In this document: positions 22,085-37,660 of the stretch, in pieces
How positions within the stretch are numbered: the first letter of the stretch is position 1
How the letters are laid out: every line of letters starts with the position of its first letter
Made by a program: the position numbers and the translations under genes
Source of the DNA: Chthoniobacter flavus
GTDB taxonomy: Bacteria; Verrucomicrobiota; Verrucomicrobiia; Chthoniobacterales; Chthoniobacteraceae
Direction of reading: 5' to 3'
Assembly (NCBI GenBank): GCA_945861435.1
Contig: CAMAUX010000001.1
Coordinates: 62,001 to 126,000 of the forward strand
Length of the DNA stretch: 64,000 nt
The notes under the pieces: generated by a model
Database searches by the model: none
Told to the model about the DNA's origin: nothing
The model's input: the letters and a program-made list of their open reading frames with translations, nothing else

Positions 22085-23329
22085 TCAGCGGGTGATTTTG
22101 CGCAGGGAGTTTTCCGAGCGGAGATAAAGAGTGCCGTCGGCGACAGCGATGGATGCAAGCGTGGGCTCGCCAATATCGTTTTTAGCGAGCTGCTCGAATG
22201 TCTTCCCGGCTTTGAGCACGAAGGTGGAGCCCGTCTCGTTTTGGAAATACACGCGGCCCTCCGCTGCGAAGGGCGAGGCGGAGAACCCGCCGCCGAGGCG
22301 TTCGCTCCAGTGGATTGTGCCGGTCTTTGCGTCCGCGCAGCTTGCGATGCCGGCATCGGAGACAAAGTAGAGTTCGTCGCCGAGCACGAGCATGGATGCG
22401 CTGTGCGGGACACCTTTGATGTGCGTCCACGCGACGTTGCTTTCCGTCGCATCGCCCTTTGCGCCATCGGGCTTCACGGCATAGAGCACGGGCTTGTTGA
22501 AGCTGGAGCTCACGTAGAGCAGGCCATGCGCGAAGACGGGGCGGGGGACGACGGAATAGCCTTCGCCGTAGTTCACGTGCCAGATTTCGTGGCCGTCTTT
22601 CGGATCGTAACTGCCGACGAGTCCGCTCCCGGGGAGGATGATCTGCGTTGCGCCGCCGACGTTGATCGGCAGCGGAGTGCAGAAGGAGAACTGGTTTTTC
22701 GCCGGCGAGTTGCGCGGCGTTTTCCAGCGCAGCTTGCCGGTCGCGGTGTCGAGCGCGGCGACGAACGGATCACTGACGCCGTCGCAGCTGAACACAAGCG
22801 CATCACCGATGAGAGCGGGCGAGGCGCCGGTGCCGTGCTGGGGCGTATAGGCGGCCTCCTTGTCCTGCTTCCACAGGATCTTGCCGGTGAGGTCGAGCGC
22901 AGCCGTGCCCATGTGGCCGAAGTGGACGTAGAGCCGGTCGCTGGTGACGATGGGCGAAGGGCTCGCGAGCGAATTCTTTTTGTGCATCACGGACGATGCG
23001 CCGGCCTCGGGTTTGAAAATCTCCGTGTCCCACAGGATCTGCCCGTCCTTCGCGTCCACGCACAGCGCGCGCAGCGACACGTCGGCGCCCTTCTCGCCGA
23101 TGGCGGTGGTGAGGTAGAGCCGACCCTTCGAAAGCACGGGCGATGACCAGCCTTTCCCTGGAATCTCCGTCTTCCAGACAACGTGCTGCGTATCGCTCCA
23201 CTCGACGGGCACGCTCTTCGCGTCCGAGAGGCCCTGTCCATCGGGGCCGCGGAACTGCGGCCACTCGTCTGCGGCGTGTGCGGTGACTGCGAAAGCCAGT
23301 GCTGCGAGGATGCGGGTGGGGCGGTTCAT
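22085..23329 (-). CDS. Secreted PQQ-like (BamB-type) beta-propeller protein
   Basis: A 414-residue protein with signal MNRPTRILAALAFAVTAHAAD and the usual start WPQFRGPDGQG. Propeller strands with the G-x-x-x-W pattern recur (AKDGQILWDTEIF, LDLTGKILWKQDKE, TATGKLRWKTPRN, AKTGTIHWSERLG). This group is common and multiplied in Planctomycetes and Verrucomicrobia; it lacks the residues for PQQ binding that can be named from sequence, so a scaffold role is as likely as a dehydrogenase. It has 222 and 230 bases on either side and is probably its own unit. Confidence 0.88.
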   Translation of the reverse strand: MNRPTRILAALAFAVTAHAADEWPQFRGPDGQGLSDAKSVPVEWSDTQHVVWKTEIPGKGWSSPVLSKGRLYLTTAIGEKGADVSLRALCVDAKDGQILWDTEIFKPEAGASSVMHKKNSLASPSPIVTSDRLYVHFGHMGTAALDLTGKILWKQDKEAAYTPQHGTGASPALIGDALVFSCDGVSDPFVAALDTATGKLRWKTPRNSPAKNQFSFCTPLPINVGGATQIILPGSGLVGSYDPKDGHEIWHVNYGEGYSVVPRPVFAHGLLYVSSSFNKPVLYAVKPDGAKGDATESNVAWTHIKGVPHSASMLVLGDELYFVSDAGIASCADAKTGTIHWSERLGGGFSASPFAAEGRVYFQNETGSTFVLKAGKTFEQLAKNDIGEPTLASIAVADGTLYLRSENSLRKITR

Positions 23330-23559
23330 GGGGTGGGGGTGAGGGGTAAGACGGAAGACCTTAGCGTGTGTGCGTTCAGTTTGACGAGCTTGTGGGAGGG
23401 CTCGCGGTGAGAGCTGCGCGAAGGGATTCGGAGCGCATCGAAGACAGCCGCTGAAGTGGAGTCAGCAACAACCGGCAAAACGTCTGCCGCGCGGATTTTG
23501 AAGAGATGCAGGCAGCGCGGAAGAGGGCGGGGGCGGGGGTCATAGAGGATGGGAGTTTC

Positions 23560-25305
23560 TCATTTCAGCCGCTGCAGGCGCACGGCCTGGACTTCGATGC
23601 CGGGGCCCGCGGTGACTTGGAGATCGTGGAATCCTTCGGGGATGGCGAGGGTGCCGATGCTCAAAGGCTTGAAGACTTTGTCCGGAACTTCCCAGCGTGG
23701 AATGAGATCGCGCCGCGGGATTTCGGGCGGATCATAGACGGTGCTGATGCTGGTGCGGGCTTGGATCTCGCCCATGCTGACGCGGACCTCGCCGCCTGTG
23801 TTTTTGGCGGTGTGCAGTGCGCTGACTTCGTAGTGTCCGGCCACGGGCACGGTGAGATGCCAGACCATCGCGGCGGTGGGCTTTTGGAAGGTTGCCCAGT
23901 CGTAGTCCCAGCCTTTGCCGAACAGCTGCGCGCCATCGATGCGGACGGCATTGGGAACGAGCAAATCGGTGCCTTCGGTCAAGGTGATGGGGAAGCGCTC
24001 CACATTTCCGCGAGTGGTTGCGGTGGCTTCATGAAGCCACGCTAAGAAGGCCTTCTCCAGTTCCGCAGCGAGGGCGGGTTCTTGCGCAGCGATGTTGGTC
24101 TTTTCGCCGGGATCGGTGCGCAGATCGAAGAGCATCGCCTGCTTGCCGTCGTGCACCCAGCGATGTGTGGGCGTTCTCGCAGTTCCGGGATAGTTGGCGA
24201 CCGATGCGCCGTCCTTGCCTCCGCGTCCGGTGATTTCGAAGAGCGTGCGCTGCGGCCAAGAAGGCGGGGAGCCTTGCAGGAGCGGGACGAGGCTGATGCC
24301 GTCGAGAGCCTTGTCTTTCGGAGGAGGCACGCCGGCAAGTTCGAGCAAGGTGGGGAAGACATCCACATGCTGCGCGATGTCGGCGATGCGGCTGCCTGCC
24401 TTCCATTGACCCGGCCAGCGGAGGAAGAAAGGCACCCGCATGCCGCCTTCAAAAACGCTGCCCTTGGCGCCTCGCATCCCGCCATTGAAACGTGCGGTGT
24501 TGGGGCCGTTGTCGCTGGCGAAGAGGACGATGGTGTTGGCCGCGAGGTCGAGTTGATCGAGCTTCTTGAGCAAGCGCCCCACGTTGCGGTCGAGATTCTC
24601 GATCATCGCATAAACCGCAGCGTCCTTGGGCTCGGAACCGCTGGCGTGGTATTTCTCAAACAAATCTTGTGGGGCCTGCATGGGCGAATGGCAGGCATTG
24701 AATGGCACGTAGCAGAAGAAAGGCTGCGCCTTGTGACGCTCGATGAAATTCATGGCCGCATCGGCAAGCACGTCAGTGATGAATCCGTTGGTCGGTGTGA
24801 TGACGCCATCGTGTTCAAGTGCGGGGTCAAAGTAGTTCGGGAAGAACCCGCCGCTGAAGCCGAAGAACTCATCGAAGCCCTGGCCGCGTGCAGTGGAGGG
24901 ATGGTTGGAGCCGTTGTGCCATTTGCCGAAGCAACCGGAGACATAGCCTGAGGGCTTCAGCGCCTCGGCCAGTGTGACTTCATTACCATGCATCACCTCT
25001 AGTCCGTCCGAGGTGTTGAGCACGCGTAGTCGCGCATGATGCCGGCCTGAGAGCAGCGATGAGCGGGTGGGCGAACAGATGGGGCTCACATAAAAATGCT
25101 CCAGCTCCACGCTCTGTGTCCTGAGCTTGTCGAGCGATGGCGTGGAGAGCTTCGCATTGCCGTGGCAGCGCAAATCGCCCCATCCCATGTCGTCGGCAAG
25201 GATGAAGAGAATGCTCGGCGGTACCACGGACGAGGGTTGGCCCACGGAACTCACGGACGACACGGAAAAGAGAAGGGGAATGAGGAGGCTGCGGAGGTGT
25301 TTCAT
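23560..25305 (-). CDS. Secreted sulfatase (formylglycine type)
   Basis: A 581-residue arylsulfatase-like enzyme. The nucleophile motif is CSPTR with C77 to be converted to formylglycine; ILADDMGWGDL gives the metal-binding Asp pair and CFGKWHNGSNHP the conserved Lys/His region. Hydrolysis of sulfate esters of polysaccharides is expected. A C-terminal extension of ~130 residues (after the usual end) is beta-rich. The start at 25305 gives MKHLRSLLIPLLFSVSSV; this signal peptide is encoded by an inverted-repeat element (25241-25333) almost the same as the one at 35310-35402. The gene lies 34 bases after a broken GxxExxY gene. Confidence 0.93.
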   Translation of the reverse strand: MKHLRSLLIPLLFSVSSVSSVGQPSSVVPPSILFILADDMGWGDLRCHGNAKLSTPSLDKLRTQSVELEHFYVSPICSPTRSSLLSGRHHARLRVLNTSDGLEVMHGNEVTLAEALKPSGYVSGCFGKWHNGSNHPSTARGQGFDEFFGFSGGFFPNYFDPALEHDGVITPTNGFITDVLADAAMNFIERHKAQPFFCYVPFNACHSPMQAPQDLFEKYHASGSEPKDAAVYAMIENLDRNVGRLLKKLDQLDLAANTIVLFASDNGPNTARFNGGMRGAKGSVFEGGMRVPFFLRWPGQWKAGSRIADIAQHVDVFPTLLELAGVPPPKDKALDGISLVPLLQGSPPSWPQRTLFEITGRGGKDGASVANYPGTARTPTHRWVHDGKQAMLFDLRTDPGEKTNIAAQEPALAAELEKAFLAWLHEATATTRGNVERFPITLTEGTDLLVPNAVRIDGAQLFGKGWDYDWATFQKPTAAMVWHLTVPVAGHYEVSALHTAKNTGGEVRVSMGEIQARTSISTVYDPPEIPRRDLIPRWEVPDKVFKPLSIGTLAIPEGFHDLQVTAGPGIEVQAVRLQRLK

Positions 25306-25333
25306 ATTCCGTGTATTCAGTGTGTTCCGTGGG
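25241..25333. repeat. Inverted-repeat element, family 2 (full copy A)
   Basis: Two 27-nt arms (25241-25267 and 25307-25333; 23 of 27 positions pair) around a 39-nt G/A-rich loop. Each arm is three 9-mers with consensus NNCACGGAA. The full copy at 35310-35402 has the same arm and loop lengths and agrees at about 80 of 93 positions by my count. The loop holds the start codon of the sulfatase and the inner arm encodes its signal peptide residues SVSSVSSVG; the 9-nt period keeps frame. Confidence 0.85.
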
Positions 25334-25339
25334 CTGCTG

Positions 25340-25719
25340 CTAATGGACAAAGCGTTCGATGACGACACCGCCTTTGGCGCCGAAGTTGATGAGGAGGCCG
25401 AGTTTCATGCCGGTGGCTTTGAGGTAATTGAGGATCTGAGAGCGATGCTTGTTGGTGAGATCCGACACGGCTTTGAGTTCGAGAATGATCTTGTCGTAGC
25501 AAATCACATCCGGGACGAAGGTGTGGCGCAGCTTGGGCCTTTGTAGGTCAGCGGGATTTGGCGCTGCGCGTCATAAGGGATGCCTTGGAGAGCCAGCTCC
25601 GTCTCCAGACATTCTTGGTAAATGAGTTCAGTGAAACCACAGCCTTTCTCCCTGTATACTTCGAACAGCGCGCTGTGGATGAGGAAGGTCTCGTCGGCGT
25701 AGAGGAGCGGCGGGTTCAT
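25340..25719 (-). pseudogene. GxxExxY protein (PDDEXK_3 fold), frameshifted
   Basis: The first ~60 codons (from ATG at 25719) include GCGFTELIYQECL, the G-x-x-E-x-x-Y motif. After the codons for LTYKGP the frame breaks at the GGG run at 25535-25537; restoring one base gives a normal second half, with FVPDVICYDKIILELKAV (the P-D...E-x-K nuclease core) and GLLINFGAKGG, to a TAG at 25340. The family has the PD-(D/E)XK fold but no proven activity. One missing base in a homopolymer could be a true mutation or a sequencing slip. Family 2 inverted repeats lie directly on both sides. Confidence 0.88.
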
Positions 25720-25735
25720 CGTGGTTGTGGAGGTT

Positions 25736-25811
25736 CACCCGCGGAACCGGCAGAACTCACTAAACGGATTTCTGATGTCCTGATTCGGTGCGTTCCGTGC
25801 ATTCGATGGGA
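25736..25811. repeat. Inverted-repeat element, family 2 (decayed copy)
   Basis: The right arm (25785-25811) is a good three-9-mer family 2 arm; the left arm (25736-25762) agrees at only about 16 of 27 positions but keeps the GAA spacing. The loop is short (about 22 bases). It lies between the start of the broken GxxExxY gene and the stop of the SASA gene, so the GxxExxY gene is flanked by the family on both sides. Confidence 0.55.
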
Positions 25812-25863
25812 CGTTATGGCTTGGTGTTGAGCGCCTCCTCATCTGTGCGGAAGGGTGCCGCGG
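25762..25863. repeat. 102-nt direct duplication, copy 1 (tail of SASA gene)
   Basis: This stretch, covering the last 16 codons of SASA copy 3 and the repeat arm just downstream, is duplicated at 28217-28318 in the same orientation, with the same length and nine mismatches by my count. Confidence 0.85.
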
Positions 25864-27940
25864 GCAGGTCCGCCACGTTGTAGAGATTGCAGGTGGGATT
25901 GTCCGACCACGCGTAACGCACGGCGATGGGTGCAGGCACATGAACAGAGGAGACGAGCACGGTGGCGCCGTCGATCTTCGCATCGGCCCAGACCCATTTC
26001 TTGTCCGCGCCGCAAATCGCGAAGCCCTCGAGCTGGCTGAGCGGGCTATTACGCACCAGCGACGCAGTCTTATCAGCTTTGCGCATCACGGCATAAGTCG
26101 CGGGCACATCCTTGGCGACGAGTCCGTTTTCGATGTGATCAAAGCTCAGTCGGATGGAGCCTCCTTCGATCTTCATGGACGCGTAGATCGGGCCGGAATT
26201 CGGAATGGCGCGCCCATAGGTTTTGGCGAGTGCGATTTTGGCGAGGCGTTCGCCCGCGATCTGTTTGGTCTGTGGATGAATGTCCTCGGACTCGCCGGTG
26301 TCGATGAGCACGGCCATGCCGGTGTTCGGGACGGCGAGTGTCTTCGACTGCGCTTCGCGCAGATCCGCCCAGATGCTTTCGCCGGGCTGGTCCGTCTTTG
26401 CGCGGTAGTTGGCGAGCTGGCAGAAGTAGAAGGGGAAATCGCCCTGCTGCCAGTGCTGCCGCCAGTCTTTGATGAGCAAAGGAAACGAGGTGCGGTAGAG
26501 CGCGGCATTGCCGGTGTTCGATTCGCCCTGATACCAGAGCACGCCGCGGATCGCGTAGGGCAGGATGGGATGCACCATGCCCTGAAAGAGCCTGCCCGGG
26601 AGAACGTGCTGCCCTGTGAGCGGCGGCACGGCTTTTCTCCCAGAGGGGTCGAGCGGCGGCAGTTCATACTCGGCCTTCGCCATCCAGCCACCGGGCATCT
26701 TCGTGCTGCCGATGCTGGGAAACCAACTGAATCCCGGTGGCTCGGCCGGTGCGAAGATGCGCACGGCTAATTGATTCACGCCTTCCTTCAAAAGCGCGGG
26801 CGGGATCAAGTAATGGCGGACGCTGATGAGGCCCGTAAAGCTGTCTGCCGTGCGCTGTCCGATGAGTGCGCCGTTCCAATACACTTGGTCAAACTGCGCG
26901 GAGGGACCGAATTGCAAAACCTGTGCCGCCCCGGTCTGCCTCGCGGTGAGCGTCACTTCTTTGCGAAACCAGAACGCACCGAGTTCCGGGAGCGCAGGAT
27001 GTGACGCGGGGCCGCTGTCCTTCACCGCCACCCAACCATCCTCTTTCGACACTGGCCGGGCGGTGAACGGCGCGACATCGCCGGGAGGGCGATCCTCGCG
27101 TTGCGATTGCTTCAACCACTCGCGATAGGCGCTTTTGTTGCGCTCACTCATCGCATCCATGTTCTTCGCGCCTGCAGCAAGTTCGGGTGCCGAGGCCAGA
27201 GATTCCGGACTGATCCACGGCTCCACCTTTGAGCCTCCCCAGCACACTTTGATGAGACCCACGGGCGTCTTGAGCTCACTCTGGATACTTTTTGCAAAGT
27301 AATAACCCGCCGCGATGAAATCCTCCGTGGTGCCCGGACGCGCCACTGTCCAGTAGCCTTGCACATCGTCTGCCGGTGTTCTGGCTGCAGGATTCTTGAG
27401 CACATGAAACTGCCGCAGCGTGGGATTTGCAGAGGCGTCGATCTCAGCTGTCGCGCTCGTGATCGCCTTCATGTCGAACTCCATGTTGGACTGCCCGCCG
27501 CCCGCCCAGACCTCGCCCACGATCACATCCGCAACCTTGACGCTGCGATTCCGGGCCGGCGATTGCACAACCATCTCGCGGGCGTCCGCGCTTGCCTCGA
27601 GGGCATTGAGTTTCACCGTCCATTTGCCATCTGCGTTTGCTGTCGTGCTCTGGCTCTGGCCGGCAAACTCCACGACGATCTGCTCCCCCACATCCGCCCA
27701 ACCCCATACGGGAACCGCTTTGGCGCATTGCAGCACCATGTGATCCGAGAAGATCGAGGGGAGCCTCAACTCGGCGGCGTCCAAAGCCGTTAGCGGCGCG
27801 AGCAGGAGGGCGGTGAGAGCCGGGCACAGCCACGCGTAGCGTAGCGGAGATAACCGGCGAACTTGATCATCAAATGGTCGGCCAGCAGCCTGCCAAACGG
27901 ATTTCAAAAAGACGCAGGTAACTGTGAGGGTGGTTTTCAT
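25814..27940 (-). CDS. Sialate O-acetylesterase family protein (SASA), copy 3, with inserted sandwich domain
   Basis: A 708-residue esterase. Motifs are GEVWAGGGQSNMEFD (Ser), VLWYQGESNTGNAALY and GESEDIHPQTKQ (His). Between blocks I and II (about residues 300-410) lies a galactose-binding-like sandwich (FDQVYWNGALIGQRTAD, LKEGVNQLAVRIF), as in the larger SIAE-type enzymes. The N-terminus is odd: a first short hydrophobic stretch, then an Arg-rich linker (RPFDDQVRRLSPLRYAWLC), then a second normal signal core LTALLLAPLTALDAAE. The true start may be lost or the linker may be inserted DNA. The gene lies 15 bases after the tail of a lost sialidase-like gene. Confidence 0.9.
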   Translation of the reverse strand: MKTTLTVTCVFLKSVWQAAGRPFDDQVRRLSPLRYAWLCPALTALLLAPLTALDAAELRLPSIFSDHMVLQCAKAVPVWGWADVGEQIVVEFAGQSQSTTANADGKWTVKLNALEASADAREMVVQSPARNRSVKVADVIVGEVWAGGGQSNMEFDMKAITSATAEIDASANPTLRQFHVLKNPAARTPADDVQGYWTVARPGTTEDFIAAGYYFAKSIQSELKTPVGLIKVCWGGSKVEPWISPESLASAPELAAGAKNMDAMSERNKSAYREWLKQSQREDRPPGDVAPFTARPVSKEDGWVAVKDSGPASHPALPELGAFWFRKEVTLTARQTGAAQVLQFGPSAQFDQVYWNGALIGQRTADSFTGLISVRHYLIPPALLKEGVNQLAVRIFAPAEPPGFSWFPSIGSTKMPGGWMAKAEYELPPLDPSGRKAVPPLTGQHVLPGRLFQGMVHPILPYAIRGVLWYQGESNTGNAALYRTSFPLLIKDWRQHWQQGDFPFYFCQLANYRAKTDQPGESIWADLREAQSKTLAVPNTGMAVLIDTGESEDIHPQTKQIAGERLAKIALAKTYGRAIPNSGPIYASMKIEGGSIRLSFDHIENGLVAKDVPATYAVMRKADKTASLVRNSPLSQLEGFAICGADKKWVWADAKIDGATVLVSSVHVPAPIAVRYAWSDNPTCNLYNVADLPAAPFRTDEEALNTKP

Positions 27941-27954
27941 GGCTGTGTAGGGAT

Positions 27955-28029
27955 TCACTTCTTCGGTTCAGGCGTCAGGCTCTTGACCCATGCGAGGTTG
28001 AAGACGTCGTGGTTCCGGCTGGTGACGAG
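27955..28029 (-). pseudogene. C-terminal remnant of a sialidase-like propeller gene
   Basis: The last 24 codons plus TGA of a lost gene. The translation (LVTSRNHDVFNLAWVKSLTP...) matches the end of the FGE-sialidase fusion at 33.2 kb (LITSKDHYVSNLAWLKALPA...) residue for residue over most of its length. Nothing upstream continues the frame. It shows that a sialidase-like gene once lay directly before the SASA gene. Confidence 0.8.
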
Positions 28030-28361
28030 TTAGAAGCGTTTGTGCCTGAGCTTCCGTTGCAGGTAGCAGCGGCGCGGCACCCTCATTTCAAAGCTCATCC
28101 GCTGCCATGTCCCGCCAGTGAAGCCGCCGAGGTGACGTCCGTTCTTCGCCATGGCCATCACGTTTTTCTCGTTGAGCCCGCGCCCGTCACGTGAAATTGC
28201 ACGGGTTGTCTTCTCGAAACGGGTTTCTGGTGTCCTGATTCGGTGCGTTCCGTGCATTCGGTGGGCCGTTACGGCTTGGTGTTGAAAGCCTCCTCGTCTG
28301 TGCGGAAGGGCGCCGCGGTGCGCTGCAATGGTTCCCAGCTCAGACTAAGCTGCGGCGTCAG
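28030..28361. other. Gap between gene remnants
   Basis: Besides the two gene tails and a lone family 2 repeat arm at 28236-28262, the stretch 28030-28210 has no assignable content. A minus-strand frame there (75 codons, ending LQRKLRHKRF) has no family I recognise and directly joins a gene remnant, so it is probably more decayed sequence. Confidence 0.5.
28269..28319 (-). pseudogene. C-terminal remnant of a fourth SASA gene
   Basis: Sixteen codons plus TAA reading TAAPFRTDEEAFNTKP, almost the same as the end of SASA copy 3 (PAAPFRTDEEALNTKP). It lies in the 102-nt duplication 28217-28318. The rest of the gene is gone; a plus-strand gene starts 42 bases further on. Confidence 0.85.
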
Positions 28362-28883
28362 ATGGATTTGAAAACGGTACTCTTGGAACTAAACGCGATG
28401 GAGGCGGACGGCATTGTTGAGCGTTACGCTATTGGGGGTGCAGTCGGCGCGACGTTTTACCTCGAGCCGGTTGCCACTCTCGACGTGGACGTTTTTATCT
28501 CATTTCAGGCACGGCCGGGGAGTTTACTCATCAGTCCGCAGCCTGTGTTCAAATACCTCACTGAGCGCGGGGCGCGAGTGGAGGGTGAATACCTGATTAT
28601 CGCGGATTGGCCTGTTCGATTTCTTCCGCCCACTGGACCGCTGGTGGAGGAGGCGCTTGCGGAAGCGGTGCAAGTTGAGGTTGAGGAAATCAGAACGCGC
28701 GTTTTTACGGCTGAACATCTTGCCGCTATAGCCCTCCGAACACGCCGTCCAAAAAACAAAGCGCGACTGCTACAGTTTCTAGAGTCGGGTGTGTTGTCTG
28801 CGGAGCGATTACAGAACATTATTGAACGGCACGCACTCTCGGGAGTTTGGAGGAAATTTGAGCAGCAATTTCTACAATCATGA
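28362..28883 (+). CDS. Nucleotidyltransferase-fold protein (AbiEii-like group)
   Basis: A 173-residue protein and the only plus-strand gene pair in this part together with its partner. The text YAIGGAVGATFYLEPVATLDVDVFI (split after 20: YAIGGAVGATFYLEPVATLD, VDVFI) has the GG of the nucleotidyltransferase fold (residues 25-26) and the D-x-D metal pair (D41, D43). Proteins of this size and shape resemble the AbiEii-type toxins, which add nucleotides to tRNA or other targets. Its TGA overlaps the ATG of a 47-codon gene. A toxin-antitoxin or defence role is an inference from size, fold and pairing. Confidence 0.75.
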   Translation: MDLKTVLLELNAMEADGIVERYAIGGAVGATFYLEPVATLDVDVFISFQARPGSLLISPQPVFKYLTERGARVEGEYLIIADWPVRFLPPTGPLVEEALAEAVQVEVEEIRTRVFTAEHLAAIALRTRRPKNKARLLQFLESGVLSAERLQNIIERHALSGVWRKFEQQFLQS

Positions 28884-29023
28884 CCTTCGAAATCGCCCAG
28901 ATCATCGAGAGTAAACGGGCCCATCGGGCGCGGTTGGCAAAGCGCCCGATAGCTGAAAAGCTGCGGATTTTGGAGGAGTTGCGCAAGCGGGCCCTCGCAA
29001 TCGCGGCCAGTCGCAGAAAATGA
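28880..29023 (+). CDS. Small basic helical protein, partner of the nucleotidyltransferase
   Basis: A 47-residue ORF that starts in an ATGA overlap with the gene before. The sequence begins MTFEIAQIIESKRAHRARLA and is Arg/Lys/Ala/Leu-rich with heptad-like spacing (IAEKLRILEELRKRALAIAA), so one or two long helices are likely. No family is known to me. Tight coupling to the nucleotidyltransferase gene supports translation and a joint role, perhaps as its antitoxin or nucleic-acid-binding cofactor. Confidence 0.7.
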   Translation: MTFEIAQIIESKRAHRARLAKRPIAEKLRILEELRKRALAIAASRRK

Positions 29024-29194
29024 GTGCGCAGTGACGGCAGCAGAATCGCTTGAGTCGCACTCTGGAGTTCGCGCGCGCGGCATTGTCACGGGGCGCGCTC
29101 GAGCGCGAGTGCCGATGAAGCCCAAGCCCTGAAGGCGCTCGCCGTCACCCAGAGACCATTGGCGTGATGCTCCGGGTAACCGGCCCACTTCAGG

Positions 29195-30433
29195 TCATCG
29201 CCGTTGTTGTTGAACAGGGATGCGCGGCAGGCGGGGGATTTCGAGCGACGCGCCCGGGCTTGCTTCGGCAGCCTCGGACAGGCTGGCGAGTGGAATCACC
29301 GTCATCTCCGCGCTGTTGTTGTTCCAGAGTTCCCGACCGGTGCCGACGCGGGTGGATTTGTCACCGCTGTTCGAGTAGCCGACGTAGAGCTTGCCTTCAT
29401 GCTCCACCGCATACGGGTAGGAGAGCGCGGCACCTTTGTTCGATTCGCCGGGGCCGCCGGGAAACTCAGCGTGGCGGATGACGAACACTTTGCTGAAGAC
29501 GGATTCGCCCGGCCTGCTGACGGCGATGGTCAAAGGCGAGCGCCGTTTGCCACTGTCCGCAGTGGTGGTGCAGACGAGATAACGCTGTCCGGTGCTCAAG
29601 GTGCCACCGCTAGGCTTGCTGGTGGCCATCGGCAGATTGCTGGGGCGCATCTCACCCCAAGTGCGACCGTAGTCCTCGCTGGTGGCGACGAGCGCCTCCG
29701 CTCCGTCGCCGTAGCGCGAGAGGCTCGTGACCCGCTTGCCATTCACGATGACGGTGGACTCACCCCACATCTTCTTGAGGTCCTTCGCCTGCGGGATCGG
29801 CACCACATCCCAGCGGGTGAAATCTTCGCCGTGACTGATGGCGACGACGGCAGGGTCGCCCGCGCCGACCTTCAGCCCGGCCATGATCCAATTGCCATCC
29901 TCCATCTTCTGCGGCTCCTGCATGGGCCAGAAGCCGTCTTCGATCACCTTGCCCTTCGACTGCCATTGCTGTGTCGCTTCATCGAGCACATACGCCCGAG
30001 TGTGAACGCTCTGCATCGTGCCGATGTAGGCTCCATGAAATGCCCACAGCGTTCCCTTGTGCGAAAGGAATGCACCATGGCTCACCCCGACAGGGCCTTC
30101 GCCTGCGTCCATCGTGCGCACCTCGCTCCATGTCCTGCCATCGTCATCGCTCACACAAAACCGAGCCTCCTCCGTGTCGGTGTTTTCGCCGCCTTTGTTG
30201 TGGCCGAAGGAGGCGTAGAGCCGGCCCTTGTGAAAGCAAAGCGCCACGCCATGCAGGAAACGGTAGCCGTCCTTGTGGAACTCGTAAGGCTTGATGACGG
30301 AGAACCGCGCGTCCTGTAGCCCCGGAAGTTCAGCGGTTTTGAGCAAAGGCACACGCTCATCCCAGAGCGGCGCGTTAGGTTCCGCAGCAATCAAGGAAGT
30401 GGCAGCGAGGAAGAGCGTGAGGGCGAGTTTCAT
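29195..30433 (-). CDS. Secreted sialidase-like (BNR) propeller protein
   Basis: A 412-residue protein with signal MKLALTLFLAATSLIAAEP. Asp-box repeats are visible (SDDDGRTWSEV, SEDYGRTWGEM), and the pattern of a six-bladed sialidase-like propeller covers the whole length. Arg residues of a true exo-sialidase triad cannot be assigned with confidence, so the substrate may be another glycan. It is convergent with the nucleotidyltransferase pair, 171 bases away. Confidence 0.85.
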   Translation of the reverse strand: MKLALTLFLAATSLIAAEPNAPLWDERVPLLKTAELPGLQDARFSVIKPYEFHKDGYRFLHGVALCFHKGRLYASFGHNKGGENTDTEEARFCVSDDDGRTWSEVRTMDAGEGPVGVSHGAFLSHKGTLWAFHGAYIGTMQSVHTRAYVLDEATQQWQSKGKVIEDGFWPMQEPQKMEDGNWIMAGLKVGAGDPAVVAISHGEDFTRWDVVPIPQAKDLKKMWGESTVIVNGKRVTSLSRYGDGAEALVATSEDYGRTWGEMRPSNLPMATSKPSGGTLSTGQRYLVCTTTADSGKRRSPLTIAVSRPGESVFSKVFVIRHAEFPGGPGESNKGAALSYPYAVEHEGKLYVGYSNSGDKSTRVGTGRELWNNNSAEMTVIPLASLSEAAEASPGASLEIPRLPRIPVQQQRR

Positions 30434-30839
30434 GATGGAGGACAGTTTGTAAAAGGGTAATGACGATTGTGGTCCTCAGGCCTTCAAAAGGATCACCCTC
30501 AGAGAACGAACTTCTTGTGGGTAAAATAGTCGCCCCCCCCTGCAAGCCAGCCCGCTTTTCCTGCCTTCTGTTCGATGTTGTGGGGACGCGGCGCTGGTGT
30601 GTCTTCCAACCTGGCGTCGGGGGCTTCGCGTGAGAGCGGTGTGATGGGGTGTGATGGGGTGTGATGGGGTGTGATGGGGTGTGATGCTGCGCGGGATCCG
30701 AATGGAGCTGCTCCCTCCAAAAGTGAAGTCGGACGACCTTCCGCCATGCAGCGCCTACTCCGGGGAGCTCAGATTCTGGAGTTCAACCTCAGCGATGGAT
30801 CCCTTGAAGGAAGGACGCCTCCCAGCTAAGATCCACCCC
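30434..30839. other. Gap with tandem repeat, no gene
   Basis: A 406-base region between divergent genes. Apart from the 10-bp tandem repeat at 30641-30686 nothing is assignable. A minus-strand frame of 82 codons runs over the tandem repeat and is His/Pro/Thr-rich because of it; I do not call it. Confidence 0.6.
30641..30686. repeat. 10-bp tandem repeat (GTGATGGGGT), 4.6 copies
   Basis: Four exact copies of GTGATGGGGT followed by GTGATG. Exactness shows recent slippage. Confidence 0.95.
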
Positions 30840-31052
30840 ATGAGCGAGATCGTCTTCGAGGTGAGAGAAGACGAGGGCGTCGGCGGTTTCCACGCGGCTG
30901 CATTGGGGTATGGGATTCATACACAGGGCGACACTCTGGAAGAACTTCGGGCAATGGTCCGGGATGCGGTGGATTGTTATTTTGATGGAACGCAGGAGGC
31001 GCCGCGGATGATTCGGCTGCACTTCGTCCGCGATGAGGTCCTAGCCCGATGA
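30840..31052 (+). CDS. hicB: HicB-like antitoxin-type protein
   Basis: A 70-residue protein (MSEIVFEVREDEGVGGFHAA...) with the partial RNase-H-like HicB fold: FEVREDEGVGGFHAAALG, then GDTLEELRAMVRDAVDCYFD. It has no C-terminal DNA-binding part, as in the short HicB class. Its TGA overlaps the ATG of a frame starting MRTPRDVDGPQL, a typical HicA start, but the rest of HicA is missing. The antitoxin is thus probably an orphan. I chose the ATG 15 codons inside the longer frame because it fits the family start. Confidence 0.75.
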   Translation: MSEIVFEVREDEGVGGFHAAALGYGIHTQGDTLEELRAMVRDAVDCYFDGTQEAPRMIRLHFVRDEVLAR

Positions 31053-31084
31053 GGACCCCGCGGGATGTGGACGGGCCACAACTC
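31049..31084 (+). pseudogene. 5' stub of hicA
   Basis: Twelve codons reading MRTPRDVDGPQL, like the start of HicA toxins (M-x-x-P-R-D-V-S-G-x-x-L), in an ATGA overlap with hicB. Downstream the frame stays open to 31312 but contains none of the HicA dsRBD-like core (no G-S-H-x-x). The identity rests on a short match and on the position next to hicB. Confidence 0.4.
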
Positions 31085-31265
31085 TTTGAGGATCTGCTGC
31101 TGAAGATCGACCTCCAGCCACGGGATCGCGTTCCAGATGCCGTCTGGTGGTGGGGTGGGCTTGGATGCTGCAGGCGTGATTGGGGGTCTGGGAGGTTTCC
31201 GAACACGATTGTCCTCAGCGTGCCGATGACTCATCGCGACGCATCAGTGAATGATTCGCCTGCGG

Positions 31266-31574
31266 TCACGGTGCGGCTGCCGGTTCATGGGCGATGTAGT
31301 CAATCTCCATGAACTCGGCGACTTCGGGCAGCCAGCGTTCCTGCACAAAGCCCACATGGTCGGGATGGTCGCTGTATTGCTGATATACAGCCGCATCCGC
31401 GAACTCCATGGAGAGGCCGAAGGTGAAGGGGTTTTTGGCGCTGACCTGCCGCAGGCACTCGAATCGTTCCACGCCAGGGATGCGCGCGAGATCGCTCGCA
31501 GCTTTGAGGAAATTCAGTTCGGCAGCCGAAGCGGCGGGATGCTTGAGGCGGAAGACCACGGTGTGGCGGATCAT
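31266..31574 (-). CDS. Dabb (stress-responsive A/B barrel) family protein
   Basis: A 102-residue cytoplasmic protein starting MIRHTVVFRLKH, the normal Dabb start, with VERFECLRQVSAKNPFTFGL and YQQYSDHPDHVGFVQERWLP. The family forms small dimeric ferredoxin-like barrels; most members have no known reaction. It has no signal peptide, unlike its neighbours. The open frame upstream (65 more codons) is not family sequence. Confidence 0.9.
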   Translation of the reverse strand: MIRHTVVFRLKHPAASAAELNFLKAASDLARIPGVERFECLRQVSAKNPFTFGLSMEFADAAVYQQYSDHPDHVGFVQERWLPEVAEFMEIDYIAHEPAAAP

Positions 31575-31728
31575 GGGCGGGTGGAAAGAGTGAGGGGTTG
31601 TTTCATGGCGAAGCTGCATCATCTGTGGGGCGGGCTTTCTAGCGTCATTCCCTTTCCGGTTGCGTGCGGGGTCCTGCGGCCCTTTGTGGCGGGGCGAAGG
31701 CGGGCGATTTCCTCTGTGGAGATGGGGT

Positions 31729-33195
31729 TTATTGAGCCGGGATGAAGCGGATGGAGAACAGGTCTGCATCGCTCATTTCGAAACGGAGCCGCACGGGTTT
31801 GCCCGTGAATGCAGCGAGGTCCGGAGCGCTCTTCCAACCGACGGTGCGCGCGATGTGATCGCCCCAGATCGGTTCGCAATCGTCGAGTGTGAAGCCGGGA
31901 ATGGCATTGCCGCCGGCGTTCTGGATTTCCACGCGCATCTGACCTGCAGCGCTGGTGGAGTAATTGATCTCGAGCTTGCTGCCGGTGAAGGTGAAGGGTT
32001 TGGTGACGAACTCGCCGCCTGCCAGCGGTGCGTGGACGGAGACAAAGCCGTCGAGTCGGAGTGCGTAGCGGCGGCCACCGGTGAGGAAGAGGGACATCTC
32101 GGCATCGCCGGTCTGATGGATGCCGATGGCCGCGTAGTTTGCGCGGTCGGCCCAGCCCTCCTTGCCGATGCCCGGACGGATGAAGCTCTCGGTGAATTCG
32201 CGATGAAACACGTCGGCGCCACGGGTGCTCATGAAGAGGATGTCCGTGGCGGCGCCGCGCTTGTCCATGAACCGCGTGGGGGTGGCGATGTAGATGTGTG
32301 GTGCTCGGAAATAAGGCTGCGTGCAGCTGGTGTAGAGATGCTCGCCCGGCAGGTTCACATCGATCTCGACGAAAGGGGTCCAGTGGATGAAGTCGGTGGA
32401 GGTGGTGCGCGCGATGCCGCGGCAGCCCTTGATGAAACGGCGGAAGTAACAGATGTAAGCGTGCTCGGACTCGCTCCAGAACGCGTAGTTCTGCGAGTCG
32501 AAGTACTTGCCCCATTCCTCGGGAACAATGGGTTCGTCGCGCAGTTTTTTCCAATGGATGCCGTCGGGTGAGGCGAAGGCTTTGAGGCCGCCGGGGCCGC
32601 GTTTCTCACGCACGGCGAGTTGGTGGGGTTGGTAGGAGATACCACCGAGCGCCTTGTATTTTTCCGCGGGTGGCACGCCGGGTTTGGTGTCGATGAAGGG
32701 CGTGAAGTTATGGTTCACGAGGAACTCATTCATGAGAACGATGTTGCCTTGGGGGAAGGTGTCGTGCGCGAAGAGGCCGAGGCTGGGGAGCGTCCAGTGG
32801 ATGGCATCTCTGCTCTCGGCGTAGAGCGTGACCTCGCCTGCATGGTACTGCTCGAGACCTTTCTTCCACGTGTTGCCCGGGATGGTGTCGCCCCGGTAGT
32901 AGAACTGGAATTTGTCGTCCGCCTTGAGGACGGTGGCGTAATGGCCGTTTGGGCGGGGCGGAGCGACGGGCGGCATCCACTGCGGCTCATGGAGTTTCAG
33001 CGTGGTGTTCTTCAGGTCGCTGACGAGGAACCGATCTACGAAAAGCTCACGGCGTGAGCCGATGTCTGGTGTGTCGGCGGCCTGCGAAGCGTGCACGAAC
33101 GGAAGCAGGAGGATGCTGAGGAGGAGGCGGAGCGAGCAGAGGCGCTGGCGCGGGCGCTTAAGTGACTCTTGGGTGATCGGCCGGGAAACGGCCAT
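31729..33195 (-). CDS. Secreted five-bladed-propeller glycosidase-like protein (GH32/43/130-like)
   Basis: A 488-residue protein (signal core RLLLSILLLPFVHASQAAD). It opens with RRELFVDRFLVSD, typical of a PVC family annotated as glycosyl-hydrolase-like, followed by blades with S-x-D-x-x-x-W (ESRDAIHWTLP, ASPDGIHWKKL, TSTDFIHWTPF). A C-terminal sandwich (FTFTGSKLEINYSTSAAG) follows from ~380. The fold suggests action on beta-fructosides, arabinans or mannosides, but catalytic acids cannot be fixed. It starts 46 bases after the FGE-sialidase gene and is probably co-transcribed. Confidence 0.75.
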   Translation of the reverse strand: MAVSRPITQESLKRPRQRLCSLRLLLSILLLPFVHASQAADTPDIGSRRELFVDRFLVSDLKNTTLKLHEPQWMPPVAPPRPNGHYATVLKADDKFQFYYRGDTIPGNTWKKGLEQYHAGEVTLYAESRDAIHWTLPSLGLFAHDTFPQGNIVLMNEFLVNHNFTPFIDTKPGVPPAEKYKALGGISYQPHQLAVREKRGPGGLKAFASPDGIHWKKLRDEPIVPEEWGKYFDSQNYAFWSESEHAYICYFRRFIKGCRGIARTTSTDFIHWTPFVEIDVNLPGEHLYTSCTQPYFRAPHIYIATPTRFMDKRGAATDILFMSTRGADVFHREFTESFIRPGIGKEGWADRANYAAIGIHQTGDAEMSLFLTGGRRYALRLDGFVSVHAPLAGGEFVTKPFTFTGSKLEINYSTSAAGQMRVEIQNAGGNAIPGFTLDDCEPIWGDHIARTVGWKSAPDLAAFTGKPVRLRFEMSDADLFSIRFIPAQ

Positions 33196-33241
33196 GGTGG
33201 TTGATTGGGGGGGGATGTGCATCACAGGGGGCTGGGTGGGT

Positions 33242-35374
33242 TCAATTCTTCGGTGCAGCCGGCAGCGCTTTGAGCCATGCGAGGTTGGAGACGTAGTGAT
33301 CTTTGCTCGTGATGAGCTGGATGCGGCCGTCGCGGGACTGGGTGAGGGCGAGGTAGCCGTTGGTGTCGGCGGTGGTCTTGCCTTCGAGAGCGATGAGGCG
33401 GCGGTCGGGCCAAGTCCTGCCTTCGTCGTAGCTGACGGCGGCGTAGAGGCCGATGCCGGTGTATTCGCCTCCGGTGGATTGAAAGGGGAGACCCTTGCGC
33501 TCGTTCTTTGGCGTGCGGGCTTGATCAGTGAAAGAGCAGAGAAGGATGGGGCCTTCTTTCAGCCGCAGCATGGCGGGCCGCTGCGTGTTGCTGACCACGG
33601 GGAACTCGCTGCTGTCCCACTGCCATGTTTCGCCCAAGTCGCTGGAGTAACTGGCGGGCATCTTGAGGTGGAAACGTTGTTGCGCGGGTTCCTCCGGCGA
33701 GAGGCGCGCATAGGCCATGAGACGTCCGTCGGCGAGTTCGACGATGGGCGAATGAATGCCCGCAATGAAGGGGCCTTTGCCTCCGGGTCGAATGTCATCC
33801 GATCCTCGGCGATGCCGCCCGGTTTCGCGCCATGTCCTGCCGTTGTCGCGGCTGATCGAGAGGCCCGAAAAGTCGAATGGGATGGCGATGACGCCCTCCT
33901 TGGTGCGGATGGGATTACCGGCGGACTCGCCGTGTGAGCGCATCACTTCCGCCTTGGACCAGGTCGCGCCGTTGTCGGTGGAACGGCGGATCAAGATATC
34001 GCCATGCTGGCGGCCCTCGACGATGTGGAAGATCGTCTGGTCGCCGTCCCACCAGATCTTGGGGGCGTGATCGTTCACGTCCTGTGCATCCCAGAAAGGC
34101 GAGGCGGGTTCCCATTCCATGGCGCCGAAGCGCAGGCGCGAGGCGGCGTTGGCGGTGGTGAGGTCGGTCTCGCCCAGCGTGGAGAACCAGACGGCGAGCA
34201 GATCGCCATTCGGGCATTCGGTGATGGACGGGCTGTGATTCTGGCTGATGAACACCGGGCCGACTGCGCCATCCGGGATGCGGACGAAGGGCTTCGGCCC
34301 CTCGAAGAACGGCATGGTGGGAGAGGGCGGTTGAAGCTTTGGCACGGTCTGGCTGACGTTCTGTGCATTCAGCGGTGGCGCGGCAACGGGCAACGGTTTG
34401 CCTTTCGGCAACTCGCCCTGCACGACGCGGAATCCGATGCGTTCACTCGCGGAGTTCGTCACCCACGAGCCGCGATTCGCGGAGCGGAGGAAGCGGATCA
34501 TGGAGGAATGGAACCCGCCGCGGAAGACGCGGCAGTCGCCATCGGCGCGGCCGAGGGGTTCGGTCTGCGGGCCGTTTTCGTAGGGCCCGTACCAGTCGCT
34601 GCACCATTCGGCGAGGTTGCCGTGCATGTCGTGGAGTCCCCATGGATTCGGGGTTTTTCGCGCCACGCGCAACGATCCCGCACCAGTGGATTTCGACTCC
34701 TTCTGCGGGTGATCGAGACCGAGGATCTGACCCTGCTTCAAGCTCGCGCCGGGTTTCCCGGGAGTTCGCCAGTCGTACTCGCGCGGCATGGGTCCTGGCG
34801 GGAAATACACGCCGCGGAGGTTTTCCTCACTGAACCATTTTTGGTGGCCGTCCGGCAGCGTGTCGCCGGTATGGAAGAGCGTTTTGGTGCCGGCGCGGCA
34901 GGCGTATTCCCACTCGGCCTCGGTGGGCAGTCGGTAGGTCGTGCCTTCTTTTTTTGAAAGCCATTCGCAGAAGGCGACGGCCTTTTCCCACGTGACACCG
35001 CTGGCTGCGTCGTCATCCGCGGGCTTCGACTTTGGATCGCTCGTTTTGAAGCCGGGATCAAACTGGCGATACTGCGCCACGGTGACCTCGGTGACGCCCA
35101 TCATGAACGGCTTCGTGATGGTGACTTGGTGCGCCGGTTTCTCATCGAAGTCGATCCGGTCGATGTCCTTGTGCATCTCACCAAAGCGCTTCTGCCGCAG
35201 GTAATCCTCCATGGGCGGTCCGTCCTGTCCCATCGTGAAAGAGCCCGCTGGGATGGGAACGAGCTGGATGCCGATGGAGTTGGTGCTGGCGATGGGCTCG
35301 GCGGTCTTACCCACGGAACGCACCGAAGACACGGAAAGGAGAAGGGGAATGAGGAGGGTGAGGGGCTGTTTCAT
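33242..35374 (-). CDS. Fusion of FGE-sulfatase-type domain and sialidase-like propeller
   Basis: A 710-residue exported protein in two parts. Residues ~30-315 are a formylglycine-generating-enzyme-like domain (VPIPAGSFTMGQDG, TEVTVAQYRQFDP, YRLPTEAEWEYACRAG, NPWGLHDMHGNLAEWCSDWY, RVFRGGFHSS). Residues ~350-710 are a sialidase/BNR propeller (STDNGATWSKAEV, SRDNGRTWRETG, SSDLGETWQWD, SYDEGRTWPDR). The FGE-like part lacks the two catalytic Cys pattern that I can verify, so it may be a non-enzymatic C-type-lectin-like domain. The start at 35374 and signal MKQPLTLLIPLLLSVSSV lie in an inverted-repeat element (35310-35402). Confidence 0.88.
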   Translation of the reverse strand: MKQPLTLLIPLLLSVSSVRSVGKTAEPIASTNSIGIQLVPIPAGSFTMGQDGPPMEDYLRQKRFGEMHKDIDRIDFDEKPAHQVTITKPFMMGVTEVTVAQYRQFDPGFKTSDPKSKPADDDAASGVTWEKAVAFCEWLSKKEGTTYRLPTEAEWEYACRAGTKTLFHTGDTLPDGHQKWFSEENLRGVYFPPGPMPREYDWRTPGKPGASLKQGQILGLDHPQKESKSTGAGSLRVARKTPNPWGLHDMHGNLAEWCSDWYGPYENGPQTEPLGRADGDCRVFRGGFHSSMIRFLRSANRGSWVTNSASERIGFRVVQGELPKGKPLPVAAPPLNAQNVSQTVPKLQPPSPTMPFFEGPKPFVRIPDGAVGPVFISQNHSPSITECPNGDLLAVWFSTLGETDLTTANAASRLRFGAMEWEPASPFWDAQDVNDHAPKIWWDGDQTIFHIVEGRQHGDILIRRSTDNGATWSKAEVMRSHGESAGNPIRTKEGVIAIPFDFSGLSISRDNGRTWRETGRHRRGSDDIRPGGKGPFIAGIHSPIVELADGRLMAYARLSPEEPAQQRFHLKMPASYSSDLGETWQWDSSEFPVVSNTQRPAMLRLKEGPILLCSFTDQARTPKNERKGLPFQSTGGEYTGIGLYAAVSYDEGRTWPDRRLIALEGKTTADTNGYLALTQSRDGRIQLITSKDHYVSNLAWLKALPAAPKN

Positions 35375-35402
35375 GGTCGGTGTGTTCAGTGCGTTCCGTG
35401 GG
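35310..35402. repeat. Inverted-repeat element, family 2 (full copy B)
   Basis: Arms 35310-35336 and 35376-35402 (27 nt each, 23 of 27 pair) around a 39-nt purine-rich loop that ends in the start codon of the FGE-sialidase fusion. The left arm encodes SVSSVRSVG of its signal peptide. Same size and layout as copy A at 25241-25333. Confidence 0.85.
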
Positions 35403-35443
35403 CTGCTGCGCATGGATAAAGCGGAGCCACGGATGGGAGTTGG

Positions 35444-35470
35444 CCCACTGAATGCACGGACGGCACGGAA
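35444..35470. repeat. Family 2 solo arm
   Basis: A 27-nt arm of three 9-mers (CCCACTGAA first), followed by a G/A-rich stretch like the loop of the full copies, but no second arm. It lies between the fusion gene and the DUF1501 stop. Confidence 0.65.
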
Positions 35471-35506
35471 ACGAGGAGGGGGGTGGCGATCCTCATGGAT
35501 GCTTTG

Positions 35507-36991
35507 TCAGGAGAGGATGTCGTGGATGACGTGGCCGTGGACGTCGGTGAGGCGGCGGCGGGTGCCGTTGTTGTAGAAGGTGAGTTTTTCGTGATCGACG
35601 CCGAGGAGGTGCAGCGCCGTGGCGTGCAGGTCGTAGCAGTAGGTGGGATGCTCTGCAGCCTTGGCGCCGAGTGCGTCGGTGCTGCCGTGCGCGGTGCCGC
35701 CTTTCACCCCACCCCCAGCCATCCATGCGGTGAATGCGCCCGGGTTGTGGTCGCGCCCCTTGCCCTGCGCTGCCGGTTGGCGGCCAAATTCAGTCGTGCA
35801 GATGATGAGCGTGCTTTCCAAGAGGCCGCGAGATTGGAGGTCGGTGAGGAGTGCGGCGGCGCCGGAGTCGAGGACAGGACCCCAGTAACCGTGGTCGCGC
35901 ACGACGTCTTCGTGGCTGTCCCAGTTTGGGCGGATTTTTTTCGCGGCGGTGTTTTCTGCGCCGCAATAGATCTGGACGAAGCGGACGCCGCGTTCGACGA
36001 GGCGGCGCGCGAGGAGGCATTGGCGGCCGAAGGGGCCGATGTCCTCGTGATCCAGCTGGTAGAGGCTTTTGGTGGCGTCGGTTTCGCCACGGAGATCGGT
36101 GGCCTCGGGCGCGCTCAGCTGCAGGCGCGCGGCGAGTTCGTAAGCGCCAATGCGGGCCTCGAGTTCGGAGTTGCCGGCGCGCGATTCAGCGTGGGCGCGG
36201 TTGAGGGTGTTGAGAAAATTGCGTCCGGCTTGTTCGGTGTCGCCGCGCAGGTGCGCGAAGTCTTTCTGGGGAAAGAGGTCGGCGATGGGCGGCTGTGCAG
36301 GGTCGGTGTTGAGAGTGGTGCCTTGGTGAATGGCGGGGAGAAAGCCTGCGCCCCAGTTAATCACGCCGCCGGGTGGAAGGCCGCGCGGGTCCGGCAGTAC
36401 GACGAAGGCGGGGAGGTCTGCGGATGCGCTGCCGAGGCCGTAGGTGACCCATGCGCCCATGCTGGGAAAGCCCGGGAGGATGAAGCCGCTGTTGGCCATG
36501 AACATGGCGGGACCGTGCAGGGCGGATTTGCTCTGCATGGAGTGGAGGAAGGCGATGTCGTCGACGCGTTGTGCGAGTTTTGGAAAGAGGTCGCTGATCC
36601 AGCGGCCGCATTGGCCGTGCTGGCGGAAGGGCCAGTAGCTGCCCTGACAGTTGCCGGGTTTGGAGGCGAAGAACTGGACTTTGCCGTCGGGGTCGAAGGG
36701 TTTGCCCTGTCGGTTGGTGAGCTCGGGTTTGTAGTCCCATGTGTCGACATGGCTGAGGCCGCCGGGACAGAAGATCTGGATGACAGCGGTGGCTTTGGGA
36801 GGATGGTGCAGGCCCTTGTGTGGGGCGTTGTCGGTGGCGGCTTGCGCTTCGTTGATGAGAGCGGCGAGAGCGACGCCGCCGAGGCCGCCTCCGATCTGCC
36901 AGAGGAAGTCGCGCCGGTGGAGAGGCTCACACGGAGGCACAAAGGCACCAAGGGGGGGGAGGGGTTGAGAGGGGAGGGGCGTTCTGGTCAT
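35507..36991 (-). CDS. DUF1501 secreted protein
   Basis: A 494-residue protein if started at the ATG at 36991. The family core begins LHRRDFLWQIGGGLGGVALA, a Tat-like signal with RRDF; FCPGGLSHVDTWDYKPEL and CTTEFGRQP...RDHNPGAFTAWMAGGG follow, as is usual. The ~20 codons before the core are encoded by repeat DNA of array 1; a GTG at 36940 (four codons before the core) is an alternative start. DUF1501 normally follows PSD1 directly; here 1.2 kb of repeats and a GxxExxY gene lie between. Function is unknown; family members are sulfatase-fold-like. Confidence 0.9.
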   Translation of the reverse strand: MTRTPLPSQPLPPLGAFVPPCEPLHRRDFLWQIGGGLGGVALAALINEAQAATDNAPHKGLHHPPKATAVIQIFCPGGLSHVDTWDYKPELTNRQGKPFDPDGKVQFFASKPGNCQGSYWPFRQHGQCGRWISDLFPKLAQRVDDIAFLHSMQSKSALHGPAMFMANSGFILPGFPSMGAWVTYGLGSASADLPAFVVLPDPRGLPPGGVINWGAGFLPAIHQGTTLNTDPAQPPIADLFPQKDFAHLRGDTEQAGRNFLNTLNRAHAESRAGNSELEARIGAYELAARLQLSAPEATDLRGETDATKSLYQLDHEDIGPFGRQCLLARRLVERGVRFVQIYCGAENTAAKKIRPNWDSHEDVVRDHGYWGPVLDSGAAALLTDLQSRGLLESTLIICTTEFGRQPAAQGKGRDHNPGAFTAWMAGGGVKGGTAHGSTDALGAKAAEHPTYCYDLHATALHLLGVDHEKLTFYNNGTRRRLTDVHGHVIHDILS

Positions 36992-37256
36992 GGGAGTATT
37001 TCTTGGTGCCATTGTGCCTTGGTGTGAGGTGCAGTTGAGGGATCTCACACGGAGGCACAAAGGCACCAAGGGGGGAGAGGGGGTGAGAGGGGAGGACGTT
37101 CTGGTGATGGGAGTATTTCTTGGTGCCATGGTGCCTTGGTGTGAGATGCAGCTGAGGGATCTCACACGGAGGCACAAAGGCACCAAGGGGGGAGAGGGGT
37201 TGAGAGGGAGAGGTGTTCTGGTGATGGGAGTATTTCTTGGTGCCTTGGTGTGAGGC
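36926..37256. repeat. Hairpin-repeat array 1 (family 1), three units
   Basis: Units begin at 36926, 37044 and 37161 (periods 118 and 117; the last unit is cut to ~95). Each unit has a 27-nt arm starting CTCACACGG, a ~49-nt G/A-rich loop, and a second arm complementary to the first at 24 of 27 positions (for unit 1: 36926-36952 and 37002-37028). The array begins at the stop codon of the GxxExxY gene and ends inside the coding start of DUF1501. Confidence 0.95.
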
Positions 37257-37646
37257 TCAGTTCGCTACGCGTTTGATGCCGTCTTTGAGCAGCTCTTCCC
37301 CAAAGTTGATGAGCAGTCCGAGGCGCGTGTCGGTGAGTCTGAGATAGGTGAGCAGTTGCTTGGAGTGCACCGGGGCGAGTTTTTCCACGGACTTCAATTC
37401 CACGATGAAACAGTCGTTGATGATGAGGTCGGCGCGGAATCCCATGTCGAAGTGCACGCCTTCAAAGGTGACGGGGATGGGTTTTTCACGTTCCACCTCG
37501 TAGCCTCGCTCCGTGAGTTTTTTCTGCAGAAGGACGGTGTAAACGCTTTCCAGAAGTCCTGGGCCGAGGGCGATGTGGAGGTGCAGGGCGTCGGCAATCA
37601 CGTCTGAGGCGATGGCGTCGAGTGCGTGCGGGATGGGGGCATTCAC
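37257..37646 (-). CDS. GxxExxY protein (PD-(D/E)XK nuclease-like fold, PDDEXK_3)
   Basis: A 129-residue intact protein with a GTG start (37646). The namesake motif is G30-LLE-SVY36. The nuclease-like core is RADLIINDCFIVELKSVEKL with D73, E83 and K85; LLTYLRLTDTRLGLLINFG and LKDGIKRV complete the family. No biochemical function is established for the family. It is embedded between two arrays of hairpin repeats: its stop codon is the border of array 1 and the first arm of array 2 begins 14 bases upstream of its start. The whole block separates PSD1 from DUF1501. Confidence 0.95.
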   Translation of the reverse strand: MNAPIPHALDAIASDVIADALHLHIALGPGLLESVYTVLLQKKLTERGYEVEREKPIPVTFEGVHFDMGFRADLIINDCFIVELKSVEKLAPVHSKQLLTYLRLTDTRLGLLINFGEELLKDGIKRVAN

Positions 37647-37660
37647 GGATGGAGAGGGAT

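Follow-up and report, generated by a model that had tools for sequence, protein, structure and literature searches.

A hairpin at the end of a GxxExxY cassette as the probable start and export signal of a Chthoniobacter flavus sulfatase

Results

The predicted sulfatase start lies within a repeated hairpin

How does a secreted enzyme come by a start codon and signal peptide that its relatives lack? The question is raised by a predicted sulfatase of 581 residues (23560-25305), with a PF00884 domain and an intact CSPTR motif, that is encoded in the 64,000-nucleotide stretch of Chthoniobacter flavus DNA analyzed here and termed the window (assembly GCA_945861435.1, contig CAMAUX010000001.1, positions 62,001 to 126,000). 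An initial annotation had proposed that a repeat element was exapted as the translation start and signal peptide of this gene, and that the element's folding may control translation. The sulfatase, the two window hairpin copies, the SASA-type, FGE, and GxxExxY genes, the left palindrome, and the arm remnant described below lie on the minus strand; all positions are given within the window.

The 93-nt hairpin that was claimed to hold the sulfatase ATG in its loop is present at 25241-25333. It runs from the 5' untranslated left arm, GCCCACGGAACACACTGAATACACGGAAT (25306-25334), through ATGAAACACCTCCGCAGCCTCCTCATTCCCCTTCTCT, to the coding right arm, TTTCCGTGTCGTCCGTGAGTTCCGTGGGC (25240-25268), and folds more stably than shuffled sequences on both the plus strand (z -4.05) and the coding strand (z -4.85). 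The first ATG of the sulfatase frame lies between the arms at 25305, at the edge of the loop MKHLRSLLIPLL (25269-25305), and the right arm is translated as SVSSVSSVG, as had been annotated, giving the protein N-terminus MKHLRSLLIPLLFSVSSVSSVGQPSSVVPPSILFILADDMGWGD.... The arm is followed by a probable extra repeat-derived tail (QPSSVVP, 25221-25239), similar tails being found in other copies and the last few bases being assigned by inference. Sulfatase-homologous sequence begins 3' of this tail; orthologue alignments start at PSILF/PNILL, the catalytic domain begins at about residue 29-30, and the PF00884 match begins at residue 30. The residues before approximately 29 are either repeat-derived or unalignable to orthologues. 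Counting against the ATG as the start is the spacing of the Shine-Dalgarno-like GGA, just two bases 5' of it.

The leader resembles native leaders in charge, hydrophobicity, and cleavage-like site. The proposal that the repeat yields a hydrophobic, Ser/Val-rich signal holds for the Ser/Val part, which the arm encodes together with the cleavage-like SVG↓Q, but not for the hydrophobicity of the arm, since the hydrophobic LLIPLLF is encoded by the loop and the arm portion is more polar.

At least 41 distinct copies of the hairpin, each at least 74% identical, were found in the organism's own genome (5.35 Mb in 105 contigs), a lower bound with 40 of 100 first-look candidates scored. Type A copies (n = 25) consist of the hairpin with short flanks, and type B copies (n = 16) of a unit of ~330 bp having the hairpin at its right end and ~90% mutual identity. 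The triplet at the position of the sulfatase ATG is ATG in 15 type A copies and ACG in 15 of the 16 type B copies. Eight type A copies, both window copies included, have the ATG and a leader frame open to the S-V end of the arm, and with the surrounding genes predicted mechanically, only two of the 41 copies, both in the window, lead long frames of recognizable exported enzymes. With its many dispersed copies (25 type A and 16 type B), its inverted ends, and its lack of an own transposase, the family is MITE-like in form, as is RU-2 of Yersinia. Neither an Rfam search of 23000-38500 (matches above gathering score) nor a plasmid search returned a match. The type B repeat, for example at about 1880-2310 of L025, with 15 others in L005, L022, L024, L026-L031, L033, and L035-L039, has a conserved left block of ~210 bp, and ATG stands at the loop start in none of its 16 copies.

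The leader was found in none of 12 close sulfatase orthologues. Five relatives (G034, G012, G059, L101, and L107) have the sulfatase as the C-terminal half of a larger protein, joined through a linker to a SASA acetylesterase, and six others (L100, L102, L105, L106, L119, and G003) have unrelated, ordinary leaders. In L104 the sulfatase, likewise with an unrelated leader, forms the beginning of a 1491-residue reading frame in which SASA is also encoded. The initial annotation had held non-repeat leaders in orthologues to speak against it. Such leaders do occur for the sulfatase; they show that the window leader was acquired and say nothing against its use. The element thus supplies N-terminal codons of a predicted exported protein whose orthologues have other signals. 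Because the repeat has at least 41 copies and the leader is missing from the twelve close orthologues, the sequence shows that the start codon and putative signal peptide derive from the repeat, as had been claimed, and that the hairpin at 25241 is the only plausible start and export signal of this gene.

The single frame at L104:4830-9305 encodes sulfatase, a further middle segment, and SASA, an order reversed relative to the fused proteins of G012 and G034; these domains appear to shuffle freely within the group.

The hairpin is the 3' end of a GxxExxY cassette

Examination of the region upstream of the hairpin revealed a decayed gene of the GxxExxY family (TIGR04256/PF13366) at 25349-25689. 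It was identified by profile match and is broken into two reading frames, TIGR04256 scoring above the cut-off over both 25349-25540 and 25528-25689. This gene lies between two palindromes: on its 3' side the abutting inverted arms at 25240-25334, with their 9-nt period, and on the other side a left palindrome (25738-25813) that is degenerate in the window and intact in L104. Together these parts form a cassette built around a GxxExxY (PD-(D/E)XK nuclease-like) gene, with the hairpin as its 3' terminal palindrome. The SASA-type acetylesterase gene (25814-27958), which is sulfatase-fused in five relatives, stops right at the cassette, and the sulfatase frame opens anew within the hairpin. A matching layout follows the same gene in L104, where the GxxExxY gene is intact (85% identical). 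At 28212-28318, a second copy of the SASA 3' end followed by the cassette left palindrome is 90% identical to 25757-25863, and is apparently the remnant of another SASA-cassette junction.

An exact-arm pattern matched only the organism's own genome among 213 genomes of the order, as did the leader peptide among 388 genomes of the phylum, and this version of the sequence is therefore private. Generality was approached instead through the GxxExxY gene and through orthologues. The GxxExxY family is present in 167 of the 213 genomes of the order, from which 90 loci were surveyed for arms. Strong inverted arms (score of at least 14) were found at 77% of the 86 usable loci, compared with 19% when arms were paired across loci and 1% for shuffled sequences. 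The arms have a median length of 33, their median distance from the stop codon is 4 nt, and in 67 loci the arms match themselves at a lag of 9 at 49% of positions versus 28% when shuffled. As a rule, GxxExxY genes are flanked on both sides by inverted arms that consist of a repeated 9-nt unit. The unit differs widely among loci (CACGGAGGA, CACGAAGAA, CACCAAGGC, CGCAGAGGA, CGCAGATTA, ACAGAATTT, and others). In loci L191-L220 and L230-L289 the two arms of one locus match although the unit varies between loci, and the arms must therefore be copied from each other or from a common target. The annotated 9-nt period that keeps the reading frame is upheld; it is explained as a general property of cassette ends, one that happens to keep the frame. 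The number of copies suggests that the cassette is mobile.

A second, intact GxxExxY gene (37265-37640) lies amid arrays of hairpin units (36926-38208), each 117 bp long and based on a different 9-nt unit. The next gene encodes a DUF1501 protein (35507-36916 plus leader) without the N-terminus of its relatives, and its in-frame starts lie inside the repeats. The ATG at 36991 is present only in the unit adjoining the DUF1501 gene, the other units differing at that spot. This gene is possibly another whose start was supplied by a cassette end.

Arm-coded leaders recur in other genes and genomes

Arm-coded SVxSVxSVG leaders, similar to the SVSSVxSVG type for which a search had been suggested, were found in other secreted proteins and in other genomes. 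A second hairpin copy in the window (35310-35409) gives the leader MKQPLTLLIPLLLSVSSVRSVG to an FGE-sulfatase (PF03781) and BNR protein (33242-35374), which starts within it as MKQPLTLLIPLLLSVSSVRSVGK; just upstream of this hairpin is the remnant of another hairpin arm (35444-35471). An FGE relative in L100 has the leader MKPIRLFLIPLSLSVSSVHSVGQ within a weaker hairpin, and three paralogues in G012 carry SVSSVYTVG, SVSSVYSVG, and the diverged SVSSLHFEG, while the FGE relatives in L101, G020, and G003 have ordinary leaders. On the FGE protein tree the arm-coded leader label changes five times. This gives no support to a single inherited gain and requires recruitment more than once, exchange of leaders, or recurrent loss.

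In L104, a sugar-isomerase-like gene following the cassette starts with MSRPLFFLVLSVLSVYSVGQAADLFDK, an arm-coded leader. Its orthologue in L105, where there is no cassette, starts with MKLVSLSLLLMASLCAPLAAADLFDK, and the two proteins are near-identical from AADLFDK on. L105 and L104 represent one site without and with the cassette, and both the SASA tail and the signal peptide of the next gene are altered. Judged from these sequences, the replacement of an existing, predicted signal peptide by a cassette end is seen most clearly in this pair. Altogether, arm-coded leaders occur in several genes in at least four genomes, and seven such leaders were examined. Of 25 GxxExxY loci with a right arm continuing into a long frame, nearly all have a next gene that seems to begin beyond the arm, and leader recruitment is therefore rare.

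The loop resembles ordinary signal-peptide starts

The loop consensus, ATGAAACAGACTCTCACCCTCCTCATTCCCCTCCTC, shares 25-28 of 36 bases with the best native signal-peptide starts, the median among 238 signal-like starts being 14. In an unbiased DNA search with the hairpin, the loop part alone matched the starts of four unrelated secreted proteins in relatives (four genomes). These likenesses suggest that the arms had captured a native signal-peptide start, and that this start later spread with the hairpin. The FGE gene was considered as the specific donor and rejected, as several ordinary signal-peptide starts are about as similar to the loop.

Hairpin pairing and the history of the locus

The initial annotation further held that the hairpin hides or exposes the ribosome site and so may control translation. 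In favor of a switch acting on a repeat-derived leader, both window hairpins fold strongly (z -4.85 and -5.22) and include the bases immediately 5' of the ATG. The fold is weaker in L100 (z -2.07), however, and the three G012 leaders and the L104 leader keep the coding arm without a hairpin (z about 0), so that four of the seven arm-coded leaders lack a pairing arm and fold no better than shuffled sequence. The other ~39 hairpin copies lead no long gene, and pairing therefore reflects the element. Since the G012 and L104 leaders keep the coding arm in the absence of the fold, the pairing is best read as a leftover of the element; the claim of translational control is not supported, and a working switch is improbable. 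Within SVSSV, the G012 leader MKRVHLF...SVSSVYSVG differs from the common FGE arm by synonymous changes (TCC to TCG and GTG to GTT), which is suggestive of constraint at the protein level, the changes being too few for a test.

We also considered whether the resemblance might run the other way, the leader being an ordinary signal peptide that merely looks like the repeat, or the sulfatase gene being the source from which the repeats spread. The loop does look like the normal signal-peptide starts of this group, but the arms belong to the 9-nt inverted repeats found on either side of GxxExxY genes, the leader is missing from the sulfatase orthologues, and other copies have the hairpin without sulfatase sequence; such an origin is very hard to credit. 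It is also quite unlikely that the sulfatase represents a non-functional remnant left by severing, or a chimera created during assembly at the repeat. The adjoining GxxExxY gene is broken, and the draft genome consists of 105 contigs and contains the hairpin many times; against this, the 581-residue frame and the CSPTR active-site motif are intact, the hairpin is presumably short enough for single reads to span, and like leaders occur independently in other assemblies.

A further question, subordinate to recruitment of the hairpin rather than opposed to it, is whether a fused SASA-sulfatase gene was split when the cassette entered it, the sulfatase half then gaining its start and signal from the hairpin. 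SASA and sulfatase are one protein of ~1250 residues in relatives, the window cassette lies exactly in the linker region, and the window sulfatase is closest (85%) to the fused proteins of L101 and L107. The best DNA tree nonetheless sets the window sulfatase outside the fused clade (support 62/65), with the alternative placement unrejected (p-AU 0.318), and the SASA tail before the window cassette (ALNTKP*) matches that of L104, in which SASA is not fused to a downstream sulfatase. A mosaic test of the SASA gene gave no clear recombination point. As replacement of the leader without severing is equally possible, we regard severing as plausible though falling somewhat short of probable.

Discussion

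The reading that we consider well supported, and hold with good though not full confidence, is that a cassette-end hairpin, having spread as a module, now serves as start and export signal of the sulfatase. A GxxExxY cassette lies between the SASA gene and the sulfatase, with the hairpin as its 3' palindrome. In this lineage, the two arms appear to enclose an ordinary signal-peptide start consisting of a start codon, a positive n-region, and a hydrophobic core. Each hairpin would for that reason be a ready-made module, in which the loop gives the start codon and hydrophobic core and the arm gives the Ser/Val c-region ending in SVG↓Q, and this module has multiplied to at least 41 copies in its own genome. 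Translation of the sulfatase would then begin at the 25305 ATG, the protein would be exported through Sec and cleaved near SVG↓Q, and the pairing arm, to judge from the relatives that lack it, would be a dispensable leftover.

A broader proposal can be made only tentatively, and we lean somewhat against it: that GxxExxY cassettes are undescribed mobile elements, with a PD-(D/E)XK-family gene and locus-specific 9-nt inverted arms, whose frame-neutral ends lie between co-directional genes and repeatedly become portable start-codon-plus-signal-peptide modules for exported enzymes. In the literature searched, where two papers mention GxxExxY, no account was found of a GxxExxY mobile cassette, of inverted arms with a 9-nt period, or of leader supply by such elements. 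To the extent of that search, this family of elements, with its 9-nt inverted ends and its recurrence, has no earlier description.

The GxxExxY family (TIGR04256/PF13366 PDDEXK_3) is itself known, the window cassette carrying a broken member and the L104 cassette an intact one. The arrangement resembles REP/RAYT and TIR-flanked tyrosine transposase elements in that palindromes akin to the termini of a small, gene-carrying element are dispersed (PMC3733652); the gene here, however, encodes a PD-(D/E)XK family protein rather than a tyrosine (HUH) transposase, and the GTAG or CGTC tag of REP/RAYT is absent from 25241-25333. Another comparison is offered by palindromic elements of Rickettsia. Those are mostly internal protein insertions, whereas the element here gives a start and a signal peptide. 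The likeness, as far as the cited account describes it, lies in palindromic repeats of ~100-150 bp, some of them in frame within proteins (Ogata et al. 2000, cited in PMC2229807).

The closest precedent found is RU-2 of Yersinia, which makes up codons 1-30 of YPO1552, a protein predicted to be exported. This role is experimentally untested, and the relatives of YPO1552 have unrelated signal peptides (Delihas 2007, PMC2759123; review, PMC2229807). In both cases a small dispersed repeat supplies a predicted signal peptide where the signals of relatives are unrelated, and the principle is thus already published. RU-2 is a different element of 168 bp, and the passages on it mention no GxxExxY gene or 9-nt period. 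The cases described here involve several genes in at least four genomes, and a repeat with an apparent captured signal-peptide start. They provide before-and-after pairs, at the level of sequence, of how selfish DNA can give a gene a new start and export signal, extend a single published locus to recurrence across genes and species, and tie the very common, unexplained GxxExxY family to a defined cassette structure.
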